Translations under genes and position numbers: made by a program | Source: Gaiellales bacterium | Lineage (GTDB): Bacteria; Actinomycetota; Thermoleophilia; RBG-16-64-13 | Reading direction: 5' to 3' | Length of the DNA stretch: 33,281 bases | NCBI GenBank assembly: GCA_012719395.1 | Contig: JAAYAL010000083.1 | Span: forward strand, 1-33,281 | Notes under the pieces: generated by a model | Databases searched by the model: none | What the model saw: the letters and a program-made list of their open reading frames with translations, nothing else | What the model was told of the DNA's origin: nothing | Part shown: piece after piece, positions 1,707 through 16,941 of the stretch | How positions within the stretch are numbered: position 1 is the stretch's first letter | Layout of the letters: the number at the start of each line of letters is the position of its first letter

Positions 1707-2651
1707 CTACTGGGCCTTCCCGAACCACTTGGCTCGGATCAGGTCGTAGGTGCCGTCCGCCTTGATCTCTCCGAGGGCCGCGTTGATTGCCTCGAGGAGC
1801 TCAGTGTTCTCCTTCTTGATGCCGAACCCGTAGTCATCGTCAACGACGATCTTGCCGGTGTTGGCCAGGTTGGGCTTGTTGCGGATCTGGTAGGCGTTGG
1901 AGGGCTCGTCGTTGACCACGGCCTCCGTGCGCCCGGCCTCGAGGTCCTGGATGGCAAGGATGATGTTCTCGTACTTCTTCATCTCTTTGATGCCTTCGAT
2001 CTTCTCAACCGCAAACTGGCCGGTGGTGTCCACCTGCACGCCCACGATCTTGCCCACGAGGCCGTCGGCGTTCTCAATGGGCTTGTCGACGGGGGTGGTG
2101 ATGGCCAGGTCATTCTGGTAGTAGGCATCCGAGAAGTTGATCTGTTCCTTGCGCTCGTCCGTGATGCTCATGGCCGAGCCGATGATGTCGAAACGGTCGC
2201 TCACGAGTGCCGGGATGATACCGTCCCAAGCGGTGGAGACCATCACAAGCTCAAGGCCCATCTTCTTGCAGAGAGAGGTCAGGATATCGACGTCGAAGCC
2301 GATGTAGCCACCCTTGCCGTCAGAGTACTCGAAGGGCGGGAATGCGGTGTCCGAACCGGCCTGCAGCTTTCCGGGCACGAGCGTCTTTGGGGTCTCAATC
2401 TTGTCAGACTTGGTGACCGCGGCAATGGCGGCGTCGGCGGCTTCAGCGTTGGGACCGGTGGCGCCCACTTCCTCCTCCGCCGCGGTGGTTGTTGTCTGCT
2501 CCGCCGCAGTAGTTGTGGTATCCCCCGCTGCGGTGGTTGTGCTCTCGGGTGTCGCAGTAGTTGTGGTGGTCTCACCGCAGCCGGTCGCCACGGCAACGAG
2601 AGCCACTGCGAGAACAAAGAAGACGATTATGGGCAACCAGTGTTTCTTCAC
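1707..2651 (-). CDS. Amino acid ABC transporter substrate-binding lipoprotein
   Basis: Extracytoplasmic solute-binding protein (SBP family 3) that captures the amino acid and delivers it to the permease. I start it at GTG 2651, giving 314 residues, because a GGGGAGGA ribosome site lies just upstream and the product then begins with a clean lipoprotein signal: a VKKHW basic head, a hydrophobic core, and lipobox VATG-C with lipidated Cys25. The longer ATG at 2747 would add 32 unlikely residues. After the Cys comes a flexible Thr/Ala/Glu linker with repeated TTTTAA blocks, then a type-3 binding fold (SDTAFPPFEY, GFDVDI, TAWDGIIPAL). It is the first gene of the operon. Confidence 0.93.
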   Translation of the reverse strand: MKKHWLPIIVFFVLAVALVAVATGCGETTTTTATPESTTTAAGDTTTTAAEQTTTTAAEEEVGATGPNAEAADAAIAAVTKSDKIETPKTLVPGKLQAGSDTAFPPFEYSDGKGGYIGFDVDILTSLCKKMGLELVMVSTAWDGIIPALVSDRFDIIGSAMSITDERKEQINFSDAYYQNDLAITTPVDKPIENADGLVGKIVGVQVDTTGQFAVEKIEGIKEMKKYENIILAIQDLEAGRTEAVVNDEPSNAYQIRNKPNLANTGKIVVDDDYGFGIKKENTELLEAINAALGEIKADGTYDLIRAKWFGKAQ

Positions 2652-2737
2652 TCTGCCATCCTCCCCAGATCGATGATGCGCTGTAGCCGTTCCATGGCTC
2701 AAGCGCCGGCGGGCCGAGGTGCCCGCGGAACCTCCTA

Positions 2738-2766
2738 TTGATAGCACAATGCCATCCGCCTGTGAA
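2738..2766 (-). promoter_or_regulatory. Candidate promoter of the ABC transporter operon
   Basis: On the minus strand TTCACA (2761-2766) is separated by 17 nt from TATCAA (2738-2743), a reasonable sigma-70-type pair about 87 nt upstream of the GTG at 2651. It lies back-to-back with the plus-strand TATAAT box at 2778-2783. Prediction by eye only. Confidence 0.4.
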
Positions 2767-2794: not shown

Positions 2795-3466
2795 ATGCCC
2801 GGCCATTGCACTTCTGAGCCACAGCACCTTGTTCCCTTCCCCGCCCCCAATTATGTCTATTGGGGCGGCGATGGTCTGTACGTGAACCTGACCAGCCGTT
2901 GCTCTGCCGCGTGCGAGTTCTGCCTCCGCACATTCACGTGGCAGATCTTCGGCTACGATCTTCTCCTGCGGCCGGAGCAGGAGCCCTCGGCGGAGCAGGT
3001 GATCCAGGCTGCTGAGGCGGAACTGGTTTCTCGCCGGGCCGCGGAAATCGTGTTCACCGGCCTGGGTGAGCCCACGATTCGTCTGGATGAGCTGCTGGGG
3101 ATACTCGCTTGGGCTAAGGCACGCGGCGCAGTCACCCGTCTCGACACCAATGGTCACGGTAAGCTTCTCCATCCGGGTAGGCAGGTGGTGTCCGAACTGG
3201 CCCATGCCGGGCTGGACGTTGCTTCCGTGAGTCTGAACGCGCCGGATGCCGCCACGTACGACCGCATCTGCAGCCCGTCTGTCAATGGAGCCTTCTCGGC
3301 CGTTGTCTCCTTCATCCGGGAGGCCGTCGCGGCCGGTGTTCGCGTGACGGCGACGGCGGTCATGCTTCCCGGGTTGGATGTCGCCGCCATCCGGCAACTG
3401 GCGCTGAATCTGGGCGCTGAGTTCCGGGCTCGGCCTCTACTCACGGCGCGGCAGGGCGTCTCGTGA
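2795..3466 (+). CDS. Radical SAM protein, TatD-linked type
   Basis: Small (223 residues) radical SAM enzyme. The cluster motif C36-x3-C40-x2-C43 sits inside NLTSRCSAACEFC, followed by the SAM-contacting GLGEPT stretch at about 89-94 and the LDTNGHG segment. This layout matches the short radical SAM family often found beside TatD nucleases, whose reaction is unknown to me. No TatD gene is present here. It is first in a plus-strand series and its TGA overlaps the next gene's GTG (GTGA). No Shine-Dalgarno precedes the ATG. It should need an anaerobic or low-oxygen cytoplasm to keep the [4Fe-4S] cluster. The family call is firm; the substrate is unknown. Confidence 0.85.
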   Translation: MPGHCTSEPQHLVPFPAPNYVYWGGDGLYVNLTSRCSAACEFCLRTFTWQIFGYDLLLRPEQEPSAEQVIQAAEAELVSRRAAEIVFTGLGEPTIRLDELLGILAWAKARGAVTRLDTNGHGKLLHPGRQVVSELAHAGLDVASVSLNAPDAATYDRICSPSVNGAFSAVVSFIREAVAAGVRVTATAVMLPGLDVAAIRQLALNLGAEFRARPLLTARQGVS

Positions 3467-4434
3467 GCTATTGGGGACCTCCGGAGGATTGGGTGCGCGA
3501 ACTGGCCGACTCACTGGCGGCCGAACTCCGGCAGATCGTGTTGCCACGTTTGGGGAGGCCTTGGTCACGAGGACTGGCCGGTCGCGCGGTGGGGGGCGAT
3601 ACCACCTTTGCCGTTGACGCCGAGGCTGAGGCGCATGTCCAGCGGAGGCTCAAGGGCTTCGCGCGGCCGGTTGCGTACTACTCCGAGGATCAGGGCCTCG
3701 TCGGGTCAGAAGGTGCGGACTGGGTGTTCATCGTGGACCCCATAGACGGTACTCGTCCCGCCATTGCCGGCTTGGAAGCCGCGTGCGTCAGTGTGGCGGT
3801 GGCCCGTCTCACGCACCGCCCTGCCATGGAGGATGTCTGGTATGGAGTGATCCTGGAGATCAAGGAGGGCGGGGTCTTCCGCGCGGTGCGGGGAGGTGGG
3901 GTGGAGATACTGGACGCATCCGGGCGCAGACGTGAGGTGTCCATCTCCATGCACAGCGACCTGTCCCGCTTGTTCTGGACCATTGGCTTCAGAGGACGGC
4001 CGGCAGCGGAGCTGGTGGCCGTCCTCGGGGGCCTCATCGACCGCTCTTCGGTGAACGGAGGGGTTTTTGATTTGGGAAGTGCCACCTACACCATGACTCG
4101 GATTCTCACGGGGCAACTCGATGCGTACGTGGACGTCGGCCCTCGGATGATCGAGCGGTCGCCCTGGGTGGAGAGGCGCTTTCGGCAGGTGGGTAACGGC
4201 AGCGTGCTCAACAACTGCCCGTACGATGTGGCGGCCGCTGCGCTGATACTGGAGGAAGCGGGTTGCGTGGTAACCGATGCCGCGGGGAACAGTCTTGACA
4301 AGCGGCCGCTGCTCGGTTCCGATGTGGCGCATCAGCTCAGCGTGGTGGCCGCTGCCAACCGGGAGATGCACGCGGCCATCCTCCAAGTGGTGGAGGAGGG
4401 ACTGGAGCATCTGGAGCGGACGGGAGCCGGATGA
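3463..4434 (+). CDS. Inositol monophosphatase family protein
   Basis: Metal-dependent sugar- or inositol-phosphate phosphatase fold, 323 residues. The visible ligands are Glu75 in the SED segment, the signature DPIDGT (Asp92, Asp95), and the second motif PYDVAAA with Asp255 followed by EEAGC. The usual Trp of motif two (WDxAA) is Tyr here, and the protein is longer than the typical 260-residue IMPase. This suggests a divergent substrate such as another phosphorylated polyol, fructose bisphosphate or a nucleotide. The GTG start overlaps the radical SAM stop, and its own stop overlaps the amrS start (ATGA), so the three proteins are probably made together. Phosphatase is the likely class; the substrate is open. 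Confidence 0.85.
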   Translation: MSYWGPPEDWVRELADSLAAELRQIVLPRLGRPWSRGLAGRAVGGDTTFAVDAEAEAHVQRRLKGFARPVAYYSEDQGLVGSEGADWVFIVDPIDGTRPAIAGLEAACVSVAVARLTHRPAMEDVWYGVILEIKEGGVFRAVRGGGVEILDASGRRREVSISMHSDLSRLFWTIGFRGRPAAELVAVLGGLIDRSSVNGGVFDLGSATYTMTRILTGQLDAYVDVGPRMIERSPWVERRFRQVGNGSVLNNCPYDVAAAALILEEAGCVVTDAAGNSLDKRPLLGSDVAHQLSVVAAANREMHAAILQVVEEGLEHLERTGAG

Positions 4435-5465
4435 CCGCTGGGCGCCAAGAGCGAAAAGCACTGTTCGCCGAGCGGGATGGCGCCAGAGTGCGCTGCACGC
4501 TCTGCCCGCACCTGTGCCTGCTCGAAGAGGGGCGGGATGGCATCTGCAGGGTTCGCGGAGTGCGAGACGGGAGCCTCCGTACCCTTGTGTACGGCCGCCC
4601 GGCCACGGTTGCCGTCGACGACATCGAGAGCAAGCAGCTGTACCATTTCCGCCCCGGGACTCGAGTGATGTCGCTTGGGACCCTGGGGTGCAATGTATTG
4701 TGTTCCGGTTGCCAGAATTGGCAGATATCTCATGCGGGCGCCGGTAAAGGTGAAGCCGAGAAGCTCACATACCTTTCGCCGGGCAAGGCCGTGCAGGCGG
4801 CCAAGCGCTACAAGGCAGCCGGCGTTGTGTTCACCTACAACGAACCGGTGGTCTGGCTGGAATACGTGCGGGACGTGTTTGTCGTCGGCAAAGAGGCCGG
4901 TCTCTACACTGCGTTGGCCACAGCCGGCTACATGAGCGATGAAGCGTTTTGTTGTGTGGCCTCGCACGTTGATGCCGTTCGCTTTGACCTCAAGGCCCCT
5001 GACGAACATGGGTACCAGCAGTTCACCAAGGCCAAGGAGGCGGGTCAGGCGCTGTCCATAGCCATTCAGGCCAAGGAAGTCTACGGCTGCCACATGGAGG
5101 TGGTCTCCAACATCATCCCCGGCATGAATGACGGCGACGAGGGTCTCCATGCCATGGCCTCGTGGATCGTGGGGCATCTGGGCCCAGATACGCCTTGGCA
5201 TGTCACCCGCTTTTCACCGGATTTTGAACTCTCGTATATCCTCCCCACGCCGCTGGCCACTCTGGAGCGTGCGGCCGCGATCGGTCGCAAGGAGGGGCTC
5301 CGTTTTGTCTATGTGGGAAACGTGCAGGGGCATGCCTCGCGGCAGACCGTATGCCCCAGCTGTGGGAGGACGGCTATCCACCGCGATGACCGTACGGCTA
5401 CCCAGATCCTGGTCAAGGGGGGGTGCTGCGCGTTCTGCGGTGAAGACTTGAACGTAGTTCAGTGA
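4431..5465 (+). CDS. amrS: AmmeMemoRadiSam-type radical SAM enzyme (AmrS)
   Basis: Radical SAM protein of 344 residues related to pyruvate formate-lyase activase. The cluster motif is C87-x3-C91-x2-C94 in TLGCNVLCSGCQNW. It is preceded by an N-terminal Cys-rich segment (Cys22, 25, 29, 39) and followed by VVFTYNEP, a family hallmark. A C-terminal zinc-ribbon-like tail (CPSCG and CAFCGE) closes the protein. The family is named for co-occurrence with AMMECR1-domain and Memo-like proteins, neither of which is in this window. Its reaction is not established to my knowledge. Translation is coupled to the phosphatase-like gene through ATGA. A 45-bp gap separates it from the anti-sigma gene. Confidence 0.9.
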   Translation: MTAGRQERKALFAERDGARVRCTLCPHLCLLEEGRDGICRVRGVRDGSLRTLVYGRPATVAVDDIESKQLYHFRPGTRVMSLGTLGCNVLCSGCQNWQISHAGAGKGEAEKLTYLSPGKAVQAAKRYKAAGVVFTYNEPVVWLEYVRDVFVVGKEAGLYTALATAGYMSDEAFCCVASHVDAVRFDLKAPDEHGYQQFTKAKEAGQALSIAIQAKEVYGCHMEVVSNIIPGMNDGDEGLHAMASWIVGHLGPDTPWHVTRFSPDFELSYILPTPLATLERAAAIGRKEGLRFVYVGNVQGHASRQTVCPSCGRTAIHRDDRTATQILVKGGCCAFCGEDLNVVQ

Positions 5466-5510: not shown

Positions 5511-5972
5511 TTGAGCGAAAAGCATGATCCACACATCGTTGCAGCGATGACGGGGCCGGAGCGGCCGCGGGGTGCGGGGCTGAGTGGCGGAGCAGGTGAC
5601 GTGGTCCTGTTGTCCATCCCCTCGAAGCCGGAATACGTGGGGCTCTCCCGTCTTGCCGTCGCCGGAGTGGCGAGAGTGTCGGATCTTCCGGAAGAGGCGG
5701 TTGCGGACCTCAAGCTGGCTGTGACGGAGGCGTGCACTTTTGCCCTGCAGCACGTGCAGGGGCAGCGTGACGCCTGCCTGGCGGTGGGGTTCCGGGTGAC
5801 CCCCCACAGTTGGGTGATCGACGTGACGTGGCCCTCGGGGAACCCGGGGGGGGATGCGGCGCTTGCGGATGGTGGTCTCGGTCTGGCGGTCATGCGTGCG
5901 CTGGTTGATGGAGTGGACCTGGAGTCCTCGTTCGACGGGCGTTCACTGCTGCGGCTCACCAAGCAGCTGTAG
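5511..5972 (+). CDS. Anti-sigma-factor-like GHKL ATPase domain protein (degenerate)
   Basis: A 153-residue protein resembling RsbW/SpoIIAB-type HATPase_c_2 kinases. The segment DLKLAVTEACT (67-76) aligns with the N-box helix and GGLGLAVMRALVD (121-133) with the G2 box. The Mg-ATP-binding Asn expected four residues after Glu73 is Phe77, and the D-x-G-x-G of the G1 box is not visible. It may therefore have lost kinase activity and work as a binding protein only. TTG 5511 was chosen for the GGAG site upstream and the lack of a better start. It sits 3 bp before the exported-protein gene, suggesting a shared envelope-related role. No sigma factor or antagonist gene is adjacent. Confidence 0.75.
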   Translation: MSEKHDPHIVAAMTGPERPRGAGLSGGAGDVVLLSIPSKPEYVGLSRLAVAGVARVSDLPEEAVADLKLAVTEACTFALQHVQGQRDACLAVGFRVTPHSWVIDVTWPSGNPGGDAALADGGLGLAVMRALVDGVDLESSFDGRSLLRLTKQL

Positions 5973-5975
5973 CAG

Positions 5976-8033
5976 GTGAGGCTGCCGGCGGGAATGCCCG
6001 AGCGGCGTCCACGCGGCTCGGGCCTGCTCTCTGGCCCTCTCTTCCTCGTCGCCTGTCTGCTGGGCTGTGTGCTGCTACTGGTGGTGCCCGGCCCTTCCTG
6101 GGCGTTGGCTTCGTCCCTCGCCGTGACGCCGGCCACGCCGTTCTGCGTGGTTGGTGAGACTGCCCGCCTCCACGTCACGGGGACCATGGCGGGACCCGTG
6201 GGAGCGGTCACGGCGCGTATTCAGGTGTGCGGCCCGGGGCGCCCGAGCTCTGGGGCGGAGGATTGGCCTATCACCGCGGAGCTCACTGTTCCCATGGGTG
6301 ATCTCGAGGGGGAGGTGGACTATACAATCTCTCTGCCCGCGCGGGCCCTTCCCCAGGCGGGGGCTTTTGAGGCACGCGTTACGGTGGGGGCGGGGGACAC
6401 CCAGCTGGGTCTGATGTCCACGTGGCTGGCAGCGGTGGTCTCCGACCAAGCGAATGTCGACTTGGCCCTCGTGTTGCCGCTGATACGTGGTGTGAGACAG
6501 GATCCATCCGGGGCCTTCGTGGATTCCGTCATCAGAGAGACGGCGGCTCCCTTCTCGGATGCGGGGGGAAGTCTCTACTTGCCGGCCTCTCTCCTGCGAG
6601 ACTTCCCCGGTTGGCATTTCTCGCTGGCAGTGGAGCCGGCGCTGCTCTCTCAGCTTGAGTCACAGACCGGCGGGTTCAGCGAGGTCTCAGGCGGCTCTCT
6701 CACGGAGTACAGTGCCGAGTCGACGGAAGCGCGCCAAGCGGCGGGAGGACTTGCGGTCCTGCGGGGGTTGGCCCGGGAGCCGGCCGTGGAAATCATCCCC
6801 ACGCCCTATGCGGCGCCCGCCGCCGCCGTTCTGGCGGAACAGGGCTGGCAGGAAGGCCTGGAGCAGATGCGGTTGGGGAGAGCCACGCTCCAACGGGTGT
6901 TGCAGCCCGGGCAGATATCCGGGGGTGCCTACGTGCCCGGCCAGGATCTGACCACACGCTGTCTGGCCTATTTCAGCCAAGCCTCCGTGGAGTATGTGGT
7001 GGCATCGGCGATGGTGACGAAGGACTTGGCCGAATCGTCTCAGGACCCGCTGCTCCCCGTACGTATCGCGGACAGTGAGAACAACCGCGTCACCCTGATG
7101 CCGGTGTCCAGCGAACTGTCCTCGGCCCTGGCCGACACCTGGGATGTCCCTCGCTTCTTCGCTGCCGTGGCCAGTCTCCTGGCCGACGGCCGCTCCGTGC
7201 TGATCGCCGCGCCGGCGCACGACTACGCGCAACTGGATCCCGCCGGCCTCAGAGCGCTGGGGCTTGGTCTGTCGCAGACAGAGTTCATCTCCACCCTGAC
7301 CTTGGCGGAACTGCTGGAGAAGCACCCTCCCAGCAGCCGCCCAGTCTTCTTGAGCCGTTTCGGAGGGCATCAGCCGGGGCTGATGGCACACACTCTGATA
7401 GAGAGGATCCGGGAAGCGCGCGGGCCCATCGCGGATCTGGTCGTGGCGGCAGGGGAGAGGGCTGGGCCGGTCTCGGCCGCCCGGGTGGCGCTCTTTCACG
7501 CCGAGAGCCGCCTATGGCTTCGGGAGGGGGCGGATCCGGCCCACGTCAATCTGGGCCTCTCATGGGCACGGGAAGCCCGGCGAGTGGTCGAGGGGGAGTT
7601 CGCGGCGGTGCACGTGGGCAAGGTGAACGCGAGGGAGAGGGAGGGACGGGCGGTGGATGTCGCGGTGGCTGTGGACAACGCCGCTGGGCAGCCGATGTCG
7701 CTGGCATTCGAGGTGGCACCGTCTGAGGGAGGGGAACCGCTGACCGTGGTGGAGCGGACGGTGGAGGTGGGTGGCGGTACGGTCGTGCTGGAGGGGATCG
7801 CGGTCCCCACAGGGCGCTACCTTCTGGCAGTTCGGGCAGGTAGCACGGAGTTGGCGTCCGTTCCTTTCTCCGTGCGGTGGGGATGGGCGGCAGAGTGGTG
7901 GCTGTGGACAGCCGCCGCCCTCGTCCTGTGCACCGCGGCGGTCGTGACAGCCAAGTGGTGGCGCCGTCGCACGGCGTCGCCACCACCCAAAGGTGAACCG
8001 GCGGTCAGGAGAGTGCGGCGTGGACCTTCTTGA
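5976..8033 (+). CDS. Exported, C-terminally anchored protein, DUF6049-like
   Basis: A 685-residue protein with an N-terminal signal or anchor helix (about 18-45), a large extracytoplasmic part, one C-terminal membrane helix (about 640-660) and a basic tail. The order is a beta-rich region (48-160), then an alpha/beta section beginning LALVLPLIRGV and containing SLAVEPALLSQL. This recalls the actinobacterial DUF6049 proteins and their GH57/deacetylase-like fold, but I recognise no catalytic motif with confidence. A second beta domain (about 560-635) precedes the helix. GTG 5976 is used; ATG 5994 is an alternative. Its 3' end overlaps the convergent CoA-binding gene by 29 bp. Envelope location is well supported, function unknown. 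Confidence 0.75.
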   Translation: MRLPAGMPERRPRGSGLLSGPLFLVACLLGCVLLLVVPGPSWALASSLAVTPATPFCVVGETARLHVTGTMAGPVGAVTARIQVCGPGRPSSGAEDWPITAELTVPMGDLEGEVDYTISLPARALPQAGAFEARVTVGAGDTQLGLMSTWLAAVVSDQANVDLALVLPLIRGVRQDPSGAFVDSVIRETAAPFSDAGGSLYLPASLLRDFPGWHFSLAVEPALLSQLESQTGGFSEVSGGSLTEYSAESTEARQAAGGLAVLRGLAREPAVEIIPTPYAAPAAAVLAEQGWQEGLEQMRLGRATLQRVLQPGQISGGAYVPGQDLTTRCLAYFSQASVEYVVASAMVTKDLAESSQDPLLPVRIADSENNRVTLMPVSSELSSALADTWDVPRFFAAVASLLADGRSVLIAAPAHDYAQLDPAGLRALGLGLSQTEFISTLTLAELLEKHPPSSRPVFLSRFGGHQPGLMAHTLIERIREARGPIADLVVAAGERAGPVSAARVALFHAESRLWLREGADPAHVNLGLSWAREARRVVEGEFAAVHVGKVNAREREGRAVDVAVAVDNAAGQPMSLAFEVAPSEGGEPLTVVERTVEVGGGTVVLEGIAVPTGRYLLAVRAGSTELASVPFSVRWGWAAEWWLWTAAALVLCTAAVVTAKWWRRRTASPPPKGEPAVRRVRRGPS

Positions 8034-12807: not shown

Positions 12808-15800
12808 CTATCCCCGGTTGGCCTGTGTTGTGGCGGAGATCACCTCCCGCTTGCCTAAGAAGATGTGGCCCGTGCGGCCGTCGATGCTGAGCCAATCGCC
12901 CACACGCAGTTCTTGTCCGTTCAGGCGGGCGGTCCCGGCTCCTTCGTTGACTTCAAGTCCGCGGCAATCGACGACGGCGTTCTTGTGCAGGCGCTTCGCG
13001 GTCACCGCTGCGTGGGAAGTGGCTCCACCGCGTGCCGTGAGGATACCTTGCACGCGAACAATCATAGCGATTTCCTCGGGCACTGTGTCAGGTCTTAGCA
13101 GCACGATGTGGTCGCAGGGTGTTTCCGTGGCCAACCTGTCGATCTGTTCGGCGTTCACCGCCACCCGACCGGCGTATGCACTGCCGGAGACCCCCATTCC
13201 CACGGCGTCAGGCTTGGGTGCGCGCTCGTCGGGAGCGCGGGCGAATGTCATGACACCTTCGGGCACCTCCTCTACCATCGAGCGCTTCTGCAGCACATAG
13301 ACATCCTGGGCGTGCGGGGATTCAAAGGCGAACTCGATCTCCTGCGGGTCGTGCTCCCGGGTGCTCACCAAGTCTTTGGCCACCTCCAGGAGTTGGTTGT
13401 ACACTTCAGGGAACTCTGTCTCCAGACTGCGGCGCACTCCCCGGTATGTCGCGCTGGCCCGGCGTTGGGCTTCAGACATGGGCAGTGGATTGACCAGCCC
13501 GCCCACGAGGTCCTCGCCCTGCGCCCCAATGGCGAAGTCGCCGAACAGCCGCACCTGCCCACTGCGCGGTTCCACGAGGCTGCGGGTGAACGTCACCCCC
13601 GCGCCCGACTGGCGGCCACGGTTGCCGTAGATCATCCGCTGGATGATGACGGCGGTTCCCCATTCCTCGGCCAGGCCCATGTAGCGGCGGTAGAAGCGGG
13701 CCTGCGGGGAGTAGTAGGAGGCGAGCACCCGGCCGACGGCGGCCACCACCTGCAGCAGTGGGTGGTCGATGAGGACGACGCCCAGTTCTTGCGAGCGGGC
13801 GCGGTACGCCAGCGCGATCTCCTTCATCTGCTCCGCGGTGAACTCCAGCTTCTGTCCCACGCCGTAGCGAGATTTGTATCCGGCGATGATCTCGTCGAAA
13901 ACGTCCCGGTCGATCCCGGCGGTCATGGCCCAGGACTGAAGGAACCGCCGGTACGAGTCCCACGCCGTCCAGGCCATGCCTGGTTGCTGGGCGAGGGCCT
14001 CGGCGAGCTCGTCATTGAGGCCCACGTTGATCAAGGTGGCCATGAGCCCGGGCATTGAGATGGCGGCACCGGAGCGGATGGCGAGCGTGAGCGGCCGGCT
14101 GGGGTCGCCCAGCCCCAGTCCCGTCTTGTCCTCCAACTCCGCAAGAGCGTGGCGTATGCGGGCCAGCGTGTGCTCGTACAGCGGGCGGTGGCTCATGGCG
14201 GGAAAGACTCCGAACAGCTCGGTGGTGAGCACGAAACCTTCAGGTACGGTGTAGCCGTACTCAGTCATCCTCTTGAGCCCCAGAGCCTTGTAGCCCAGGG
14301 TCATCTGATCGTCGACGTTGGGATTCGGCCTGTCCAGCCACGATACCAGTCGATCTGGATCGTAGGCCATCATGCGCGCGAGGTCGCGGGTATCCACCTT
14401 CTCCGCCAGGGCCGACAGGTGGCTCCGAGCGTTGGCCACATAGCGGTCCAGGCTCTGCAGACCCAGCGTGGCCACCAGGATGTCCCGCAGGAAGCCCTCG
14501 ATCACCGCGTCCAGGCCAAGCCGCCGGCAATCCAGCTGCCGGCTGTCGTCGGTCAGTATGCGGCGCAGGGCATCGTCGTAGCCCTGCATGGTCAGGCGCA
14601 CAAGATTGGTCACATCGCCGGCCAAGAACTGGAAGACGTTGCGGCACTGATTGAAGGTGAAGCCGGCGTGTGCAGCCCCATCGCGCAGCATGATGAGGTC
14701 GGAATTCAGGCTCTGCGACCTCAGCCCGTCAACCTCCAGGGCTCGCTTGAAGCACTCCAGGTTGCCTGCGAAGCGCCGGAGCGAGGCGCGGCTGACATAC
14801 TGGTCAGTTATCTCGGTGGCGATCTCATCCAGAAGCTGAGCCACGAGGCCCTCAATGCGGAACGAAAGCCCGAGGGCATCGAATTTGGGTTCTCGATAGG
14901 TGCCGTACATGGAGGGGATACCGGCGGCGATATGCCGTTTGTGAAAGATGTTCTCCTGCCCCTCCGAGTGCTTGCCGCTTAGGATTGTGGTCTTCAGTTC
15001 GGCAAGAGCCCTCAATCCCTGCTCGAGCAACGCCTCACGGCTGCGAGATCGGGAGTAGCGAGTGATGGCGGCCAGCACGCCCCGTTGCGGCGAGCGCAGG
15101 CATGTCTGCCATGTGTCCAAGGCGGCGGTGAACTCCCGACGGGTCTCGGCGGATAGCGTCAGCGAAGCGGACACCAGGGGCCCCAGGTTGCGAGGAGCGA
15201 TGGAGTACTTCTGCTCCAGCAGATCGCGCATGCGGCGCATCAGCTCCACTTTGCGATAGTCCTCAGGGGCCGCCGGCAGGTTGGCCAGCACTTTGTGGGG
15301 CCCCTCCGCCTGGGAGCGCTCGCTGGTCACGGCGGCCAGCACGCGCTCTGAGAGGAACGGTGCCAGGGGCCCGGGATCCAGCGTGGACCAATAGTCGAGC
15401 ACCGCGGTGCTGAAGGGGATGAGACGGTTGGAGGACTCCGCGTGCACCTGTTTGCGGATGAAATGCATGAGGGAGTCCTTGCGGCCACCGATCTCGTCGA
15501 TCTCGGTGGAGACGGAGCGCAACTCGCCTTCTGCCCCGACCTCGTTGAAGTAGACAGGGAAGCAGCGTAGAAGCTGCTTGATAACGGAGTAAACCGGTTC
15601 GATGTTGGCGTTGAGCAGGTCGGTGATGTCTTTCTGAAAGAGGTCGGTATCGGCGATGAAGGCGCCGCCCAGTCTCAGTTGCGCGGTGAGCCCGGCGGCC
15701 AGGCGTTCAAAGAGTTGGGGATTGGAGCGGATGATGCGCAGCCAACAGCGGATGTTGGGCAGGTGGTGGCGATTGGCCAGCGTCCGCCATTCATCGTTGG

Positions 15801-16941
15801 CCCCACAGACATCTTGGTACTCGAAGTGCCAGTGCAGAAGATCATCCGTGAGCCGATCAGCGGCCCCCACCGCTCCCGCTTCGCCAATGGCGACCCCGAT
15901 GGCTTCGTAGCACTGGAAGCGCATCTCCGGGAACAGCCCCTCCCTCTCCTGAAAGAACCGGGCCAGACGACGCAGTATGCGGTGGAAGTGCACGATGCGC
16001 GAGGGGCGGATGATCTCCCGCACTACCGACAACAACTCCACCATCACTTCACGCTGGCGGAGACCGAGAGACGTGTCCTTGAGCAGGAACAGACAGACGG
16101 CGAAGCGGTCATCCAGCGCTGAGATGCGGAAGAGTCTCTGCACCACCTCCTCCAGCATCTGGCTGAAGGTGGGGTGTTCCGGACCAACCAGTTCCATCGC
16201 AGCCGCTCCCGCCGCCGCCGACAGGTGGTGGCGGATGGCATTCGTGCCTGTGGATGCGAAAAGACCCGCCACCTCTTGGGGCGAGTGCACGCGGGCCTCG
16301 CGAGTTAGGGCCCAATCGGCCACATCGAGATGCTTTGCCACGATGGTGTAGCCTCGGAGCAGCACACGCCGGTAGGTTTCGGCCAGGCGCAGTGCCGGCA
16401 ACTCGGCGGCGGCGTGACCCGCGCCGACGAGGTCCAGCGCCACTTGTGTGACGTCTCTCAGCGCCTTGTCCCTCTCGAGCAGCGCCGACTCCAGCCGGGG
16501 GTACAGACGCTCGATGAGCGATGCCGCATCGGCGACAGGTTGCAGATACTCGTCCGCGTGAGAGCCGGTGATGGCCGCTTTCATCCAGACCAGCAATTGG
16601 CGTAGCAGCTGAGAGGCGCGGTCCTCAGGCAGTACACCCTGGAACAGGCCCTCCATGATTTCGAGGACGAGAGAGAAGAGGAGGGCTCTGTCGGCGGAGC
16701 GATCGAAGTAGTTCCAGTCGCGGAGCAACAACGTCTGCAGGCCGTCAATCACCGTGCCCGCGTGCCGGTAGCTGTGGAAGTACTCCTCCAGCGTCTCTCT
16801 CAGCAACTCGTGGGCACCATACGCGTCGGCCACGGCCTCAAGCATGACGTTGAACCTGTCGGGAATGATGGGGGCTTCCGCTGTGCCCGCGATGTTGGCC
16901 CTCAGGGCGTCCGAGTCCAGTGGCAGGAGGGAGGCGCTCAT
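12808..16941 (-). CDS. Large PPDK-like dikinase with unknown 870-residue N-terminal region
   Basis: A 1377-residue protein. Residues 1 to about 870 are mostly helical and unrecognised. From about 880 to 1255 comes a pyruvate-phosphate-dikinase-type ATP-grasp domain (GYKALGLKRM, then IRSGAAISMPG near 955, IYGNRGRQSGAGVTFTR near 1105, QGEDLVGG near 1140, and DPQEIEFAFE with LQKR at its end). The swivelling phosphohistidine domain follows, with catalytic His1310 in GGATSHAAVTAKRL. The protein stops about 68 residues after that His, so the PEP/pyruvate-binding barrel of PPDK and PEP synthase is absent. The acceptor may therefore be bound by the N-terminal region. AAGGAG lies about 10 nt before the ATG. 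It lies between a CorC-like gene (20 bp upstream) and the GAPDH-like gene. Confidence 0.85.
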   Translation of the reverse strand: MSASLLPLDSDALRANIAGTAEAPIIPDRFNVMLEAVADAYGAHELLRETLEEYFHSYRHAGTVIDGLQTLLLRDWNYFDRSADRALLFSLVLEIMEGLFQGVLPEDRASQLLRQLLVWMKAAITGSHADEYLQPVADAASLIERLYPRLESALLERDKALRDVTQVALDLVGAGHAAAELPALRLAETYRRVLLRGYTIVAKHLDVADWALTREARVHSPQEVAGLFASTGTNAIRHHLSAAAGAAAMELVGPEHPTFSQMLEEVVQRLFRISALDDRFAVCLFLLKDTSLGLRQREVMVELLSVVREIIRPSRIVHFHRILRRLARFFQEREGLFPEMRFQCYEAIGVAIGEAGAVGAADRLTDDLLHWHFEYQDVCGANDEWRTLANRHHLPNIRCWLRIIRSNPQLFERLAAGLTAQLRLGGAFIADTDLFQKDITDLLNANIEPVYSVIKQLLRCFPVYFNEVGAEGELRSVSTEIDEIGGRKDSLMHFIRKQVHAESSNRLIPFSTAVLDYWSTLDPGPLAPFLSERVLAAVTSERSQAEGPHKVLANLPAAPEDYRKVELMRRMRDLLEQKYSIAPRNLGPLVSASLTLSAETRREFTAALDTWQTCLRSPQRGVLAAITRYSRSRSREALLEQGLRALAELKTTILSGKHSEGQENIFHKRHIAAGIPSMYGTYREPKFDALGLSFRIEGLVAQLLDEIATEITDQYVSRASLRRFAGNLECFKRALEVDGLRSQSLNSDLIMLRDGAAHAGFTFNQCRNVFQFLAGDVTNLVRLTMQGYDDALRRILTDDSRQLDCRRLGLDAVIEGFLRDILVATLGLQSLDRYVANARSHLSALAEKVDTRDLARMMAYDPDRLVSWLDRPNPNVDDQMTLGYKALGLKRMTEYGYTVPEGFVLTTELFGVFPAMSHRPLYEHTLARIRHALAELEDKTGLGLGDPSRPLTLAIRSGAAISMPGLMATLINVGLNDELAEALAQQPGMAWTAWDSYRRFLQSWAMTAGIDRDVFDEIIAGYKSRYGVGQKLEFTAEQMKEIALAYRARSQELGVVLIDHPLLQVVAAVGRVLASYYSPQARFYRRYMGLAEEWGTAVIIQRMIYGNRGRQSGAGVTFTRSLVEPRSGQVRLFGDFAIGAQGEDLVGGLVNPLPMSEAQRRASATYRGVRRSLETEFPEVYNQLLEVAKDLVSTREHDPQEIEFAFESPHAQDVYVLQKRSMVEEVPEGVMTFARAPDERAPKPDAVGMGVSGSAYAGRVAVNAEQIDRLATETPCDHIVLLRPDTVPEEIAMIVRVQGILTARGGATSHAAVTAKRLHKNAVVDCRGLEVNEGAGTARLNGQELRVGDWLSIDGRTGHIFLGKREVISATTQANRG

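Follow-up and report, generated by a model that had tools for sequence, protein, structure and literature searches.

A conserved association of two radical SAM enzymes with a divergent inositol-monophosphatase-like protein in a class of Actinomycetota

In a stretch of 33,281 nucleotides from a Gaiellales bacterium (G000:C79:1-33281, hereafter the window, part of a 2.43-Mb draft genome), three open reading frames (ORFs) follow each other on one strand: ORF1, a TatD-linked-type radical S-adenosylmethionine (SAM) protein, ORF2, a phosphatase of the inositol monophosphatase (IMPase) fold, and ORF3, an AmrS-type radical SAM enzyme of the AmmeMemoRadiSam system. The association of these three genes is real and is conserved within the class, and they probably constitute a functional module. 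The first-pass annotation had described two radical SAM proteins flanking an IMPase-like protein and coupled by short overlaps, and this description agrees with the coordinates, overlaps and families found here: ORF1 and ORF2 share the four bases GTGA, and ORF2 and ORF3 share ATGA. It had also seen no TatD, AMMECR1 or Memo beside the trio, and these domains are indeed absent from the 29 ORFs of the window that were searched against Pfam, to which the search for TatD was confined.

The trio is not restricted to this genome, the possibility that the first-pass annotation had set against its own proposal. Among 149 relatives, the ORF2 set comprises 50 places in 48 genomes with E of 1.7e-26 or better, leaving out weaker generic IMPase rows and a 52-residue remnant in one genome (G024, E 4.9e-6); AmrS was found in 53 genomes, and TIGR04038, the family of ORF1, in 37. 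Both ORF2 and AmrS are present in 39 genomes, and in every one of these they are neighbours, their listed positions lying 947-1191 bases (about 1 kb) apart. Moreover, AmrS is present in all 37 genomes with TIGR04038, where independent occurrence would predict 13.2, and ORF2 in 33 of the 37. The distance between ORF1 and AmrS is below about 2.2 kb in 7/7 genomes of the window's own family (f1), where all three genes lie within that span, and in 14/15 genomes of family f3, with the genes of G039 split over contigs. In family f6 it is within 10.4 kb in nine of the 15 genomes, the other six having the genes on split contigs.

The order of the genes changes from one family to another. They form a same-strand operon in f1, ORF1 is divergent in f3, and in f6 the order is ORF1-PhoB-PhoR-HtrA-deacetylase-ORF2-AmrS-TreT-GT20, where PhoB, PhoR and HtrA are names that we presume for these genes. 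With start codons inferred, the four-base overlap between ORF1 and ORF2 is possible in 6/8 f1 loci that have ORF1 (the remaining two stand at -8 and +20), and that between ORF2 and ORF3 in 9/10 f1 loci and in all three f3 loci; the f6 genes are mostly spaced rather than overlapping. A chance overlap or a gene-calling artefact was ruled out, since other genomes have clear orthologues of all three genes, arranged as they are here.

A wider sample of 396 genomes across the phylum contained TIGR04038 in 7, AmrS in 142 and ORF2 in 58 genomes, and 44 of the 58 genomes with ORF2 also carry AmrS (20.8 expected under independence; read by eye). Several observations nevertheless weigh against a common function. 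Vertical inheritance inflates the co-occurrence counts, and for this reason weight was put on the changed gene orders and on an independent ORF2-AmrS pair in family f15. In the phylum sample, the pair is adjacent in only 12 of the 44 genomes (ten in the class and two in f15), lies on different contigs in 31 and has one place not listed. Beyond the class, a distance of 288 kb separates ORF1 from AmrS in one genome (G308), and another (G386) has ORF1 with no detectable AmrS. Even among the relatives, ORF2 is found without AmrS in 9/48 genomes and AmrS without ORF2 in 14/53. The suggestion of the first-pass annotation that the operon may reflect one pathway holds only in part: linkage and coupling of the trio speak for a shared function, whereas one pathway for all three genes is, in view of these separate occurrences, no more than plausible. 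The linkage of ORF2 with AmrS is strong in the class and rare outside it.

Phylogenetic trees placed the f15 pair apart from the others. The AmrS tree included 62 of 69 AmrS ORFs, seven loci (L037, L044, L048, L054, L055, L060 and L062) having been dropped by hand for thinning; the ORF2 tree had 52 rows, with the same seven loci dropped by hand and the identical rows L111, L112, L118 and L120 also removed. The ORF2-linked AmrS proteins of f1, f3 and f6 fall in a clade of 38 rows (100/99), separate from that formed by the AmrS proteins which f1 genomes encode in a different cassette, described below (100/99), and the ORF2-linked copies of f1 are set off by a stem of 0.98 changes per site. In f15, AmrS starts 36 and 43 bases after the stop of ORF2, and this AmrS lies outside the 38-row clade, on the other side of the tree. 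On the ORF2 tree, two changes are required to account for the AmrS-linked label, and f15 again stands apart. Since the f15 pair belongs to separate clades in both trees, either the pairing arose twice or it is old and often broken.

ORF2 is a member of Pfam Inositol_P (PF00459; E 5.8e-27, 95.3 bits, cut-off 27) and falls below the cut-off of every named NCBIfam equivalog, the best being NF009321 with 104.8 bits against 264. Residues D46, E75, D92, D95, T97 and D255 are invariant in 36/36 aligned ORF2 proteins, and we presume for them the two-metal catalytic roles of IMPA1; the same alignment gave FRGRPA and VLNNSPYDLAA as distinctive motifs of the subfamily. Arginines R98, R177 and R179 of ORF2 are conserved as well. 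The AlphaFold2 model (mean predicted local distance difference test score, pLDDT, of 91.5) matches the archaeal IMPase/fructose-1,6-bisphosphatase (FBPase) AF2372 (6b64) with Z 30.6 and a root-mean-square deviation (rmsd) of 2.1 over 252 residues at 24% identity, and MJ0109 with Z 30.2 and rmsd 2.0 over 251 residues. With high confidence, we predict that ORF2 is an active phosphatase. The idea that it could be the ordinary IMPase of the genome was ruled out, as there is a second, generic match at G000:C20 (E 2.5e-9); across the 149 genomes the ORF2 group is set sharply apart in E-value from generic IMPases.

The neighbours of ORF2 elsewhere give some indication of its substrate. Eight of the 17 fetched ORF2 loci (L108, L111, L114 and L117-L121) adjoin PatA-like and PimA-like genes, six of them also a PgsA-like gene, and the broader neighbourhood of these orthologues can be written as ProS/PgsA/PatA/PimA/LysE/LemA/HtpX. 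Candidatus Geothermincola is one bacterium with an orthologue in such a PIM locus. At the one locus that was profile-tested (L061, with the same ORF2 as L120), the model for phosphatidylinositol phosphate (PIP) synthase reached 119 of 170 bits and that for the phosphatidylinositol mannoside (PIM) acyltransferase 188.6 of 209; both matches fall under the curated cut-offs, which counts against this line of reasoning. In families f5 and f7, ORF2 stands without AmrS and adjoins GT20, in part also a TreT-like gene. GT20 is present in 138/149 relatives, and being nearly universal its proximity neither supports nor excludes ORF2 as a trehalose-6-phosphate phosphatase. Another glycoside-type neighbour was noted at L106 and L107 (G264 and G284), where a weak glucosyl-3-phosphoglycerate-synthase-like gene and a haloacid dehalogenase (HAD) hydrolase precede ORF2-AmrS. 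The inositol or sugar-glycoside theme of these neighbours points to a phosphate on such a group as the substrate to be expected; we predict an inositol or glycoside phosphate for ORF2 tentatively, at rather less than an even chance. The orthologues beside PIP synthase, PatA and PimA are candidates for the actinobacterial phosphatase that converts PIP to phosphatidylinositol (PI), an enzyme which, for mycobacteria, a passage of PMC6506517 (2019) calls yet unidentified.

The same neighbourhoods sustain the most serious alternative, that the genes are co-regulated and biochemically separate. ORF2 would then be a housekeeping phosphatase, acting for example on PIP or on a trehalose-type phosphate and by chance sharing a transcript with the anaerobic radical SAM genes ORF1 and AmrS, which alone would belong together. 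In f5 and f7, ORF2 persists beside GT20 in the absence of both AmrS and ORF1, elsewhere it lies next to PIM genes, and ORF1 stays by AmrS in four genomes where ORF2 was lost (G034 at L103, G024, G044 and G074). Against this stand the adjacency of ORF2 and AmrS in every relative having both, the four-base overlaps in f1 and f3, and the reappearance of the pair in f15, in other clades. We regard this alternative as a real possibility, though less than probable.

Two further observations concern the make-up of the trio in individual genomes. The ORF2 remnant of G024 (G024:C68:18249-18401) has AmrS on one side and the gene for the TatD-linked radical SAM protein on the other, both radical SAM genes being kept. 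One draft genome estimated as 78% complete contains two copies of the trio (G011:C10 and G011:C102), which may be due to a mixed bin or to a duplication.

ORF1 passes the TIGR04038 model (176.4 bits, cut-off 129.7), and its CX3CX2C cysteines are invariant in 20/20 aligned proteins of the family. Its AlphaFold2 model has the radical SAM fold (pLDDT 90.7). The ORF1 profile gave a weak match to MoaA (1tv7, E 2.5e-7), and the fold matched NifB (Z 18.1), Mmp10 (17.2) and the activase of pyruvate formate-lyase (PFL; 17.0), in a second look over 1000 chains that is unable to exclude other families. As many radical SAM enzymes match at similar Z, the fold gives no hint of the substrate. ORF3, in turn, passes the AmrS model TIGR04337 (292.5 bits, cut-off 220); C87, C91 and C94 (CX3CX2C) are invariant in 19/19 aligned AmrS proteins, and the AmrS signature residues, including these three cluster cysteines, are retained in the ORF3-type copies. 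The AmrS profile matches the PFL-activating enzyme (3c8f) with E 2.6e-15. The first-pass annotation had held that both radical SAM families lack an assigned reaction, and we found nothing to the contrary: NCBIfam assigns none to AmrS, and those portions of the open-access literature that were searched give no function for AmrS or TIGR04038.

ORF3 is the second AmrS of its genome. A complete AmrS-LigB-AMMECR1 cassette is found on another contig, with an AmrS at C4:1154-2113, the single AMMECR1 of the genome at C4:3052-3543 and, directly upstream of the latter, an ORF of the LigB family (PF02900, E 6.1e-43). Therefore, the hint in the first-pass annotation that the system lacks AMMECR1 here has to be withdrawn: its proposed search of the genome for AMMECR1 and Memo gave one copy of the former, and no match to the latter in this genome by PF01875 or TIGR04336. 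On the other strand next to the cassette are genes that we take to be RtcB- and archease-like; the cassette and these neighbours span L064:833-6069, and G005 (L102) has an identical arrangement.

In the other families the arrangement is different. AMMECR1 was found in 46 of the 149 relatives, and AmrS in 46/46 of these. In all 29 f3 and f6 genomes with AMMECR1, this gene and AmrS are on separate contigs (compared by eye), and these genomes have one AmrS only, the ORF2-linked one, which makes the AmrS of the trio the sole candidate for the AmmeMemoRadiSam system there. In f6, AMMECR1 comes after a true Memo (PF01875; E 6.6e-68 at L084 and 1.8e-68 at L087), and in f3 after a LigB-type gene (L085); in each case the partner itself follows a gene that we take to be MiaB-like. 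The partner thus switches between Memo (f6; L084:1101-3917 and L087:3966-6899) and LigB (f3; L085:5792-8550) at one conserved place.

In f3 and f6, then, a single AmrS stands beside ORF2 and mostly near ORF1, and AMMECR1 with its metal-binding partner, of LigB type or Memo, is elsewhere, which indicates that the cluster encodes the radical SAM enzyme of the AmmeMemoRadiSam system plus two further components. According to the explanation that we favour, f1 would have gained a foreign, complete AmrS-LigB-AMMECR1 cassette, and the native AmrS (ORF3) would have diverged on its long stem but kept ORF2 and ORF1 as neighbours. ORF2 would be a phosphomonoesterase that depends on Mg2+ and cleaves an inositol- or sugar-phosphate group, phosphatidylinositol phosphate being the foremost candidate. 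Both ORF3, as a relative of the PFL activase, and ORF1 may work through 5'-deoxyadenosyl radicals within one anaerobic pathway; the target of ORF3 could be either the phosphorylated compound of ORF2 or, in AMMECR1, the LRGC(I)G loop, and ORF2 would strip the phosphate after the radical step. Taken whole, as a conserved module with a shared phosphate and radical pathway, this explanation is held with some reserve, at slightly under an even chance, and the exact reaction proposed for the trio is improbable as it stands. Its most far-reaching form is very unlikely, namely that the AmmeMemoRadiSam system, to which the bacterial relatives of human MEMO1 and AMMECR1 belong, has the TatD-linked radical SAM protein and the new IMPase subfamily as additional components in these bacteria and works on a phosphorylated inositol or sugar compound, probably the head group of a lipid, and that the ORF2 family includes the missing actinobacterial PIP phosphatase.

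A second alternative is that ORF3 left the AmmeMemoRadiSam system and, together with ORF1 and ORF2, took on a new function private to f1. The long stem of the f1 copies and the separate, canonical AmrS clade serving the cassette would fit this, as would, in the rival's favour, the lack of ORF1 and ORF2 beside ORF3-type AmrS in eight f1 loci. We consider it unlikely, as the signature residues with the three cluster cysteines are kept, the f3 and f6 orthologues are the only AmrS of their genomes, and synteny with an RsbW-like gene is common to f1 and f3.

Less likely still is that AmrS would be a protein activase on the LRGCIG loop of AMMECR1, as the PFL activase is on its glycyl radical enzyme, with ORF1 and ORF2 as accessories: in its favour are the match to the PFL-activating enzyme, the LRGC(I/V/L)G motif in 14/14 AMMECR1 ORFs and the confinement of AMMECR1 to genomes with AmrS, but the ORF3 of the window is not the AmrS encoded with AMMECR1, LRGCIG as an AmrS substrate is putative, and eukaryotes are not known to have AmrS. 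The presence of the same LRGC(I)G motif in human AMMECR1, mentioned in a passage of PMC5502304, also tells against it.

The linkage of the trio means that two radical SAM families with no assigned reaction travel together, along with an unnamed phosphatase subfamily, and it yields a short list of partners and a class of substrates for testing. It also brings new companions to the bacterial partners of the human proteins MEMO1 and AMMECR1. The molecular function of these two human proteins is described as unknown (PMC5502304, PMC11081632), so that a bacterial context is useful if it restricts the chemistry to be considered for their relatives in prokaryotes.

The genes around the trio are listed in Table 1. 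The RsbW-like gene is directly downstream of AmrS in 18/18 f1 and 4/4 f3 loci and in none of the 15 f6 loci examined. An ORF similar to ORF5 is found downstream in 8/18 f1 loci, and in the window ORF5 is probably on the same transcript as the trio. The gene for the ATP-binding cassette (ABC) substrate-binding protein marks a conserved upstream boundary in 16/18 f1 loci, including loci that lack ORF1 and ORF2. Farther away, on the minus strand at 12808-16941, is a gene for a protein of 1377 residues whose PPDK_N and phosphoenolpyruvate (PEP)-utilizer domains are confined to about the last third, with no Pfam match in its first 900 residues. The window had no Rfam or tRNA match, a promoter scan of it gave nothing and a terminator scan only chance-level sites.

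Table 1. Genes of the trio and its flanks in the window.
Feature	Coordinates	Strand	Remarks
ORF1, TatD-linked-type radical SAM protein (TIGR04038), 223 aa	2795..3466	+	ATG 2795, TGA 3464-3466; CX3CX2C at Cys36/40/43
ORF2, inositol-monophosphatase-fold phosphatase, unnamed subfamily, 323 aa	3463..4434	+	GTG 3463, TGA 4432-4434; GTGA overlap
ORF3, AmrS-type (AmmeMemoRadiSam) radical SAM enzyme, 344 aa, the genome's second AmrS paralogue	4431..5465	+	ATG 4431, stop 5465; ATGA overlap
ORF4, RsbW-like HATPase_c_2 protein	5511..5972	+	45 bases after ORF3
ORF5, 685-aa protein, weak GH57-like match under cut-off	5976..8033	+	right after ORF4
Amino-acid ABC substrate-binding protein, divergent	1707..2747	-	outside the trio module

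In comparison with known systems, ORF2 shares with the archaeal IMPase/FBPase enzymes AF2372 and MJ0109 (PF00459) the fold, the metal site and the catalytic residues, but it is 24-25% identical to them when structurally aligned, stays under the NF009321 cut-off and has motifs of its own. As regards a PIP phosphatase, the orthologues of ORF2 in other actinobacterial lineages adjoin PIP-synthase-, PatA- and PimA-like genes, whereas the ORF2 of the window is outside such a locus. The PIP phosphatase of Bacteroides, BT_1525, is assigned in a passage of PMC9246714 to another family, that of phosphatidylglycerophosphatase A.

A TatD gene nearby is the trait that gave TIGR04038 its name and is not required by the model. 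ORF1 passes that model and carries the CX3CX2C motif of the TatD-associated radical SAM family, but its partner is ORF2-AmrS, and none of the window ORFs that were tested has a TatD domain. Similarly, the AmmeMemoRadiSam system (TIGR04337 with AMMECR1 and Memo) usually, though not necessarily, has its partners in one cluster with AmrS. The genome described here has a passing AmrS in ORF3, together with AMMECR1 and a metal-binding partner; however, this partner is of LigB type and not a PF01875 Memo, and ORF3, diverged and coupled to ORF1 and ORF2, is on C79, while the partners are on C4 with the other AmrS.

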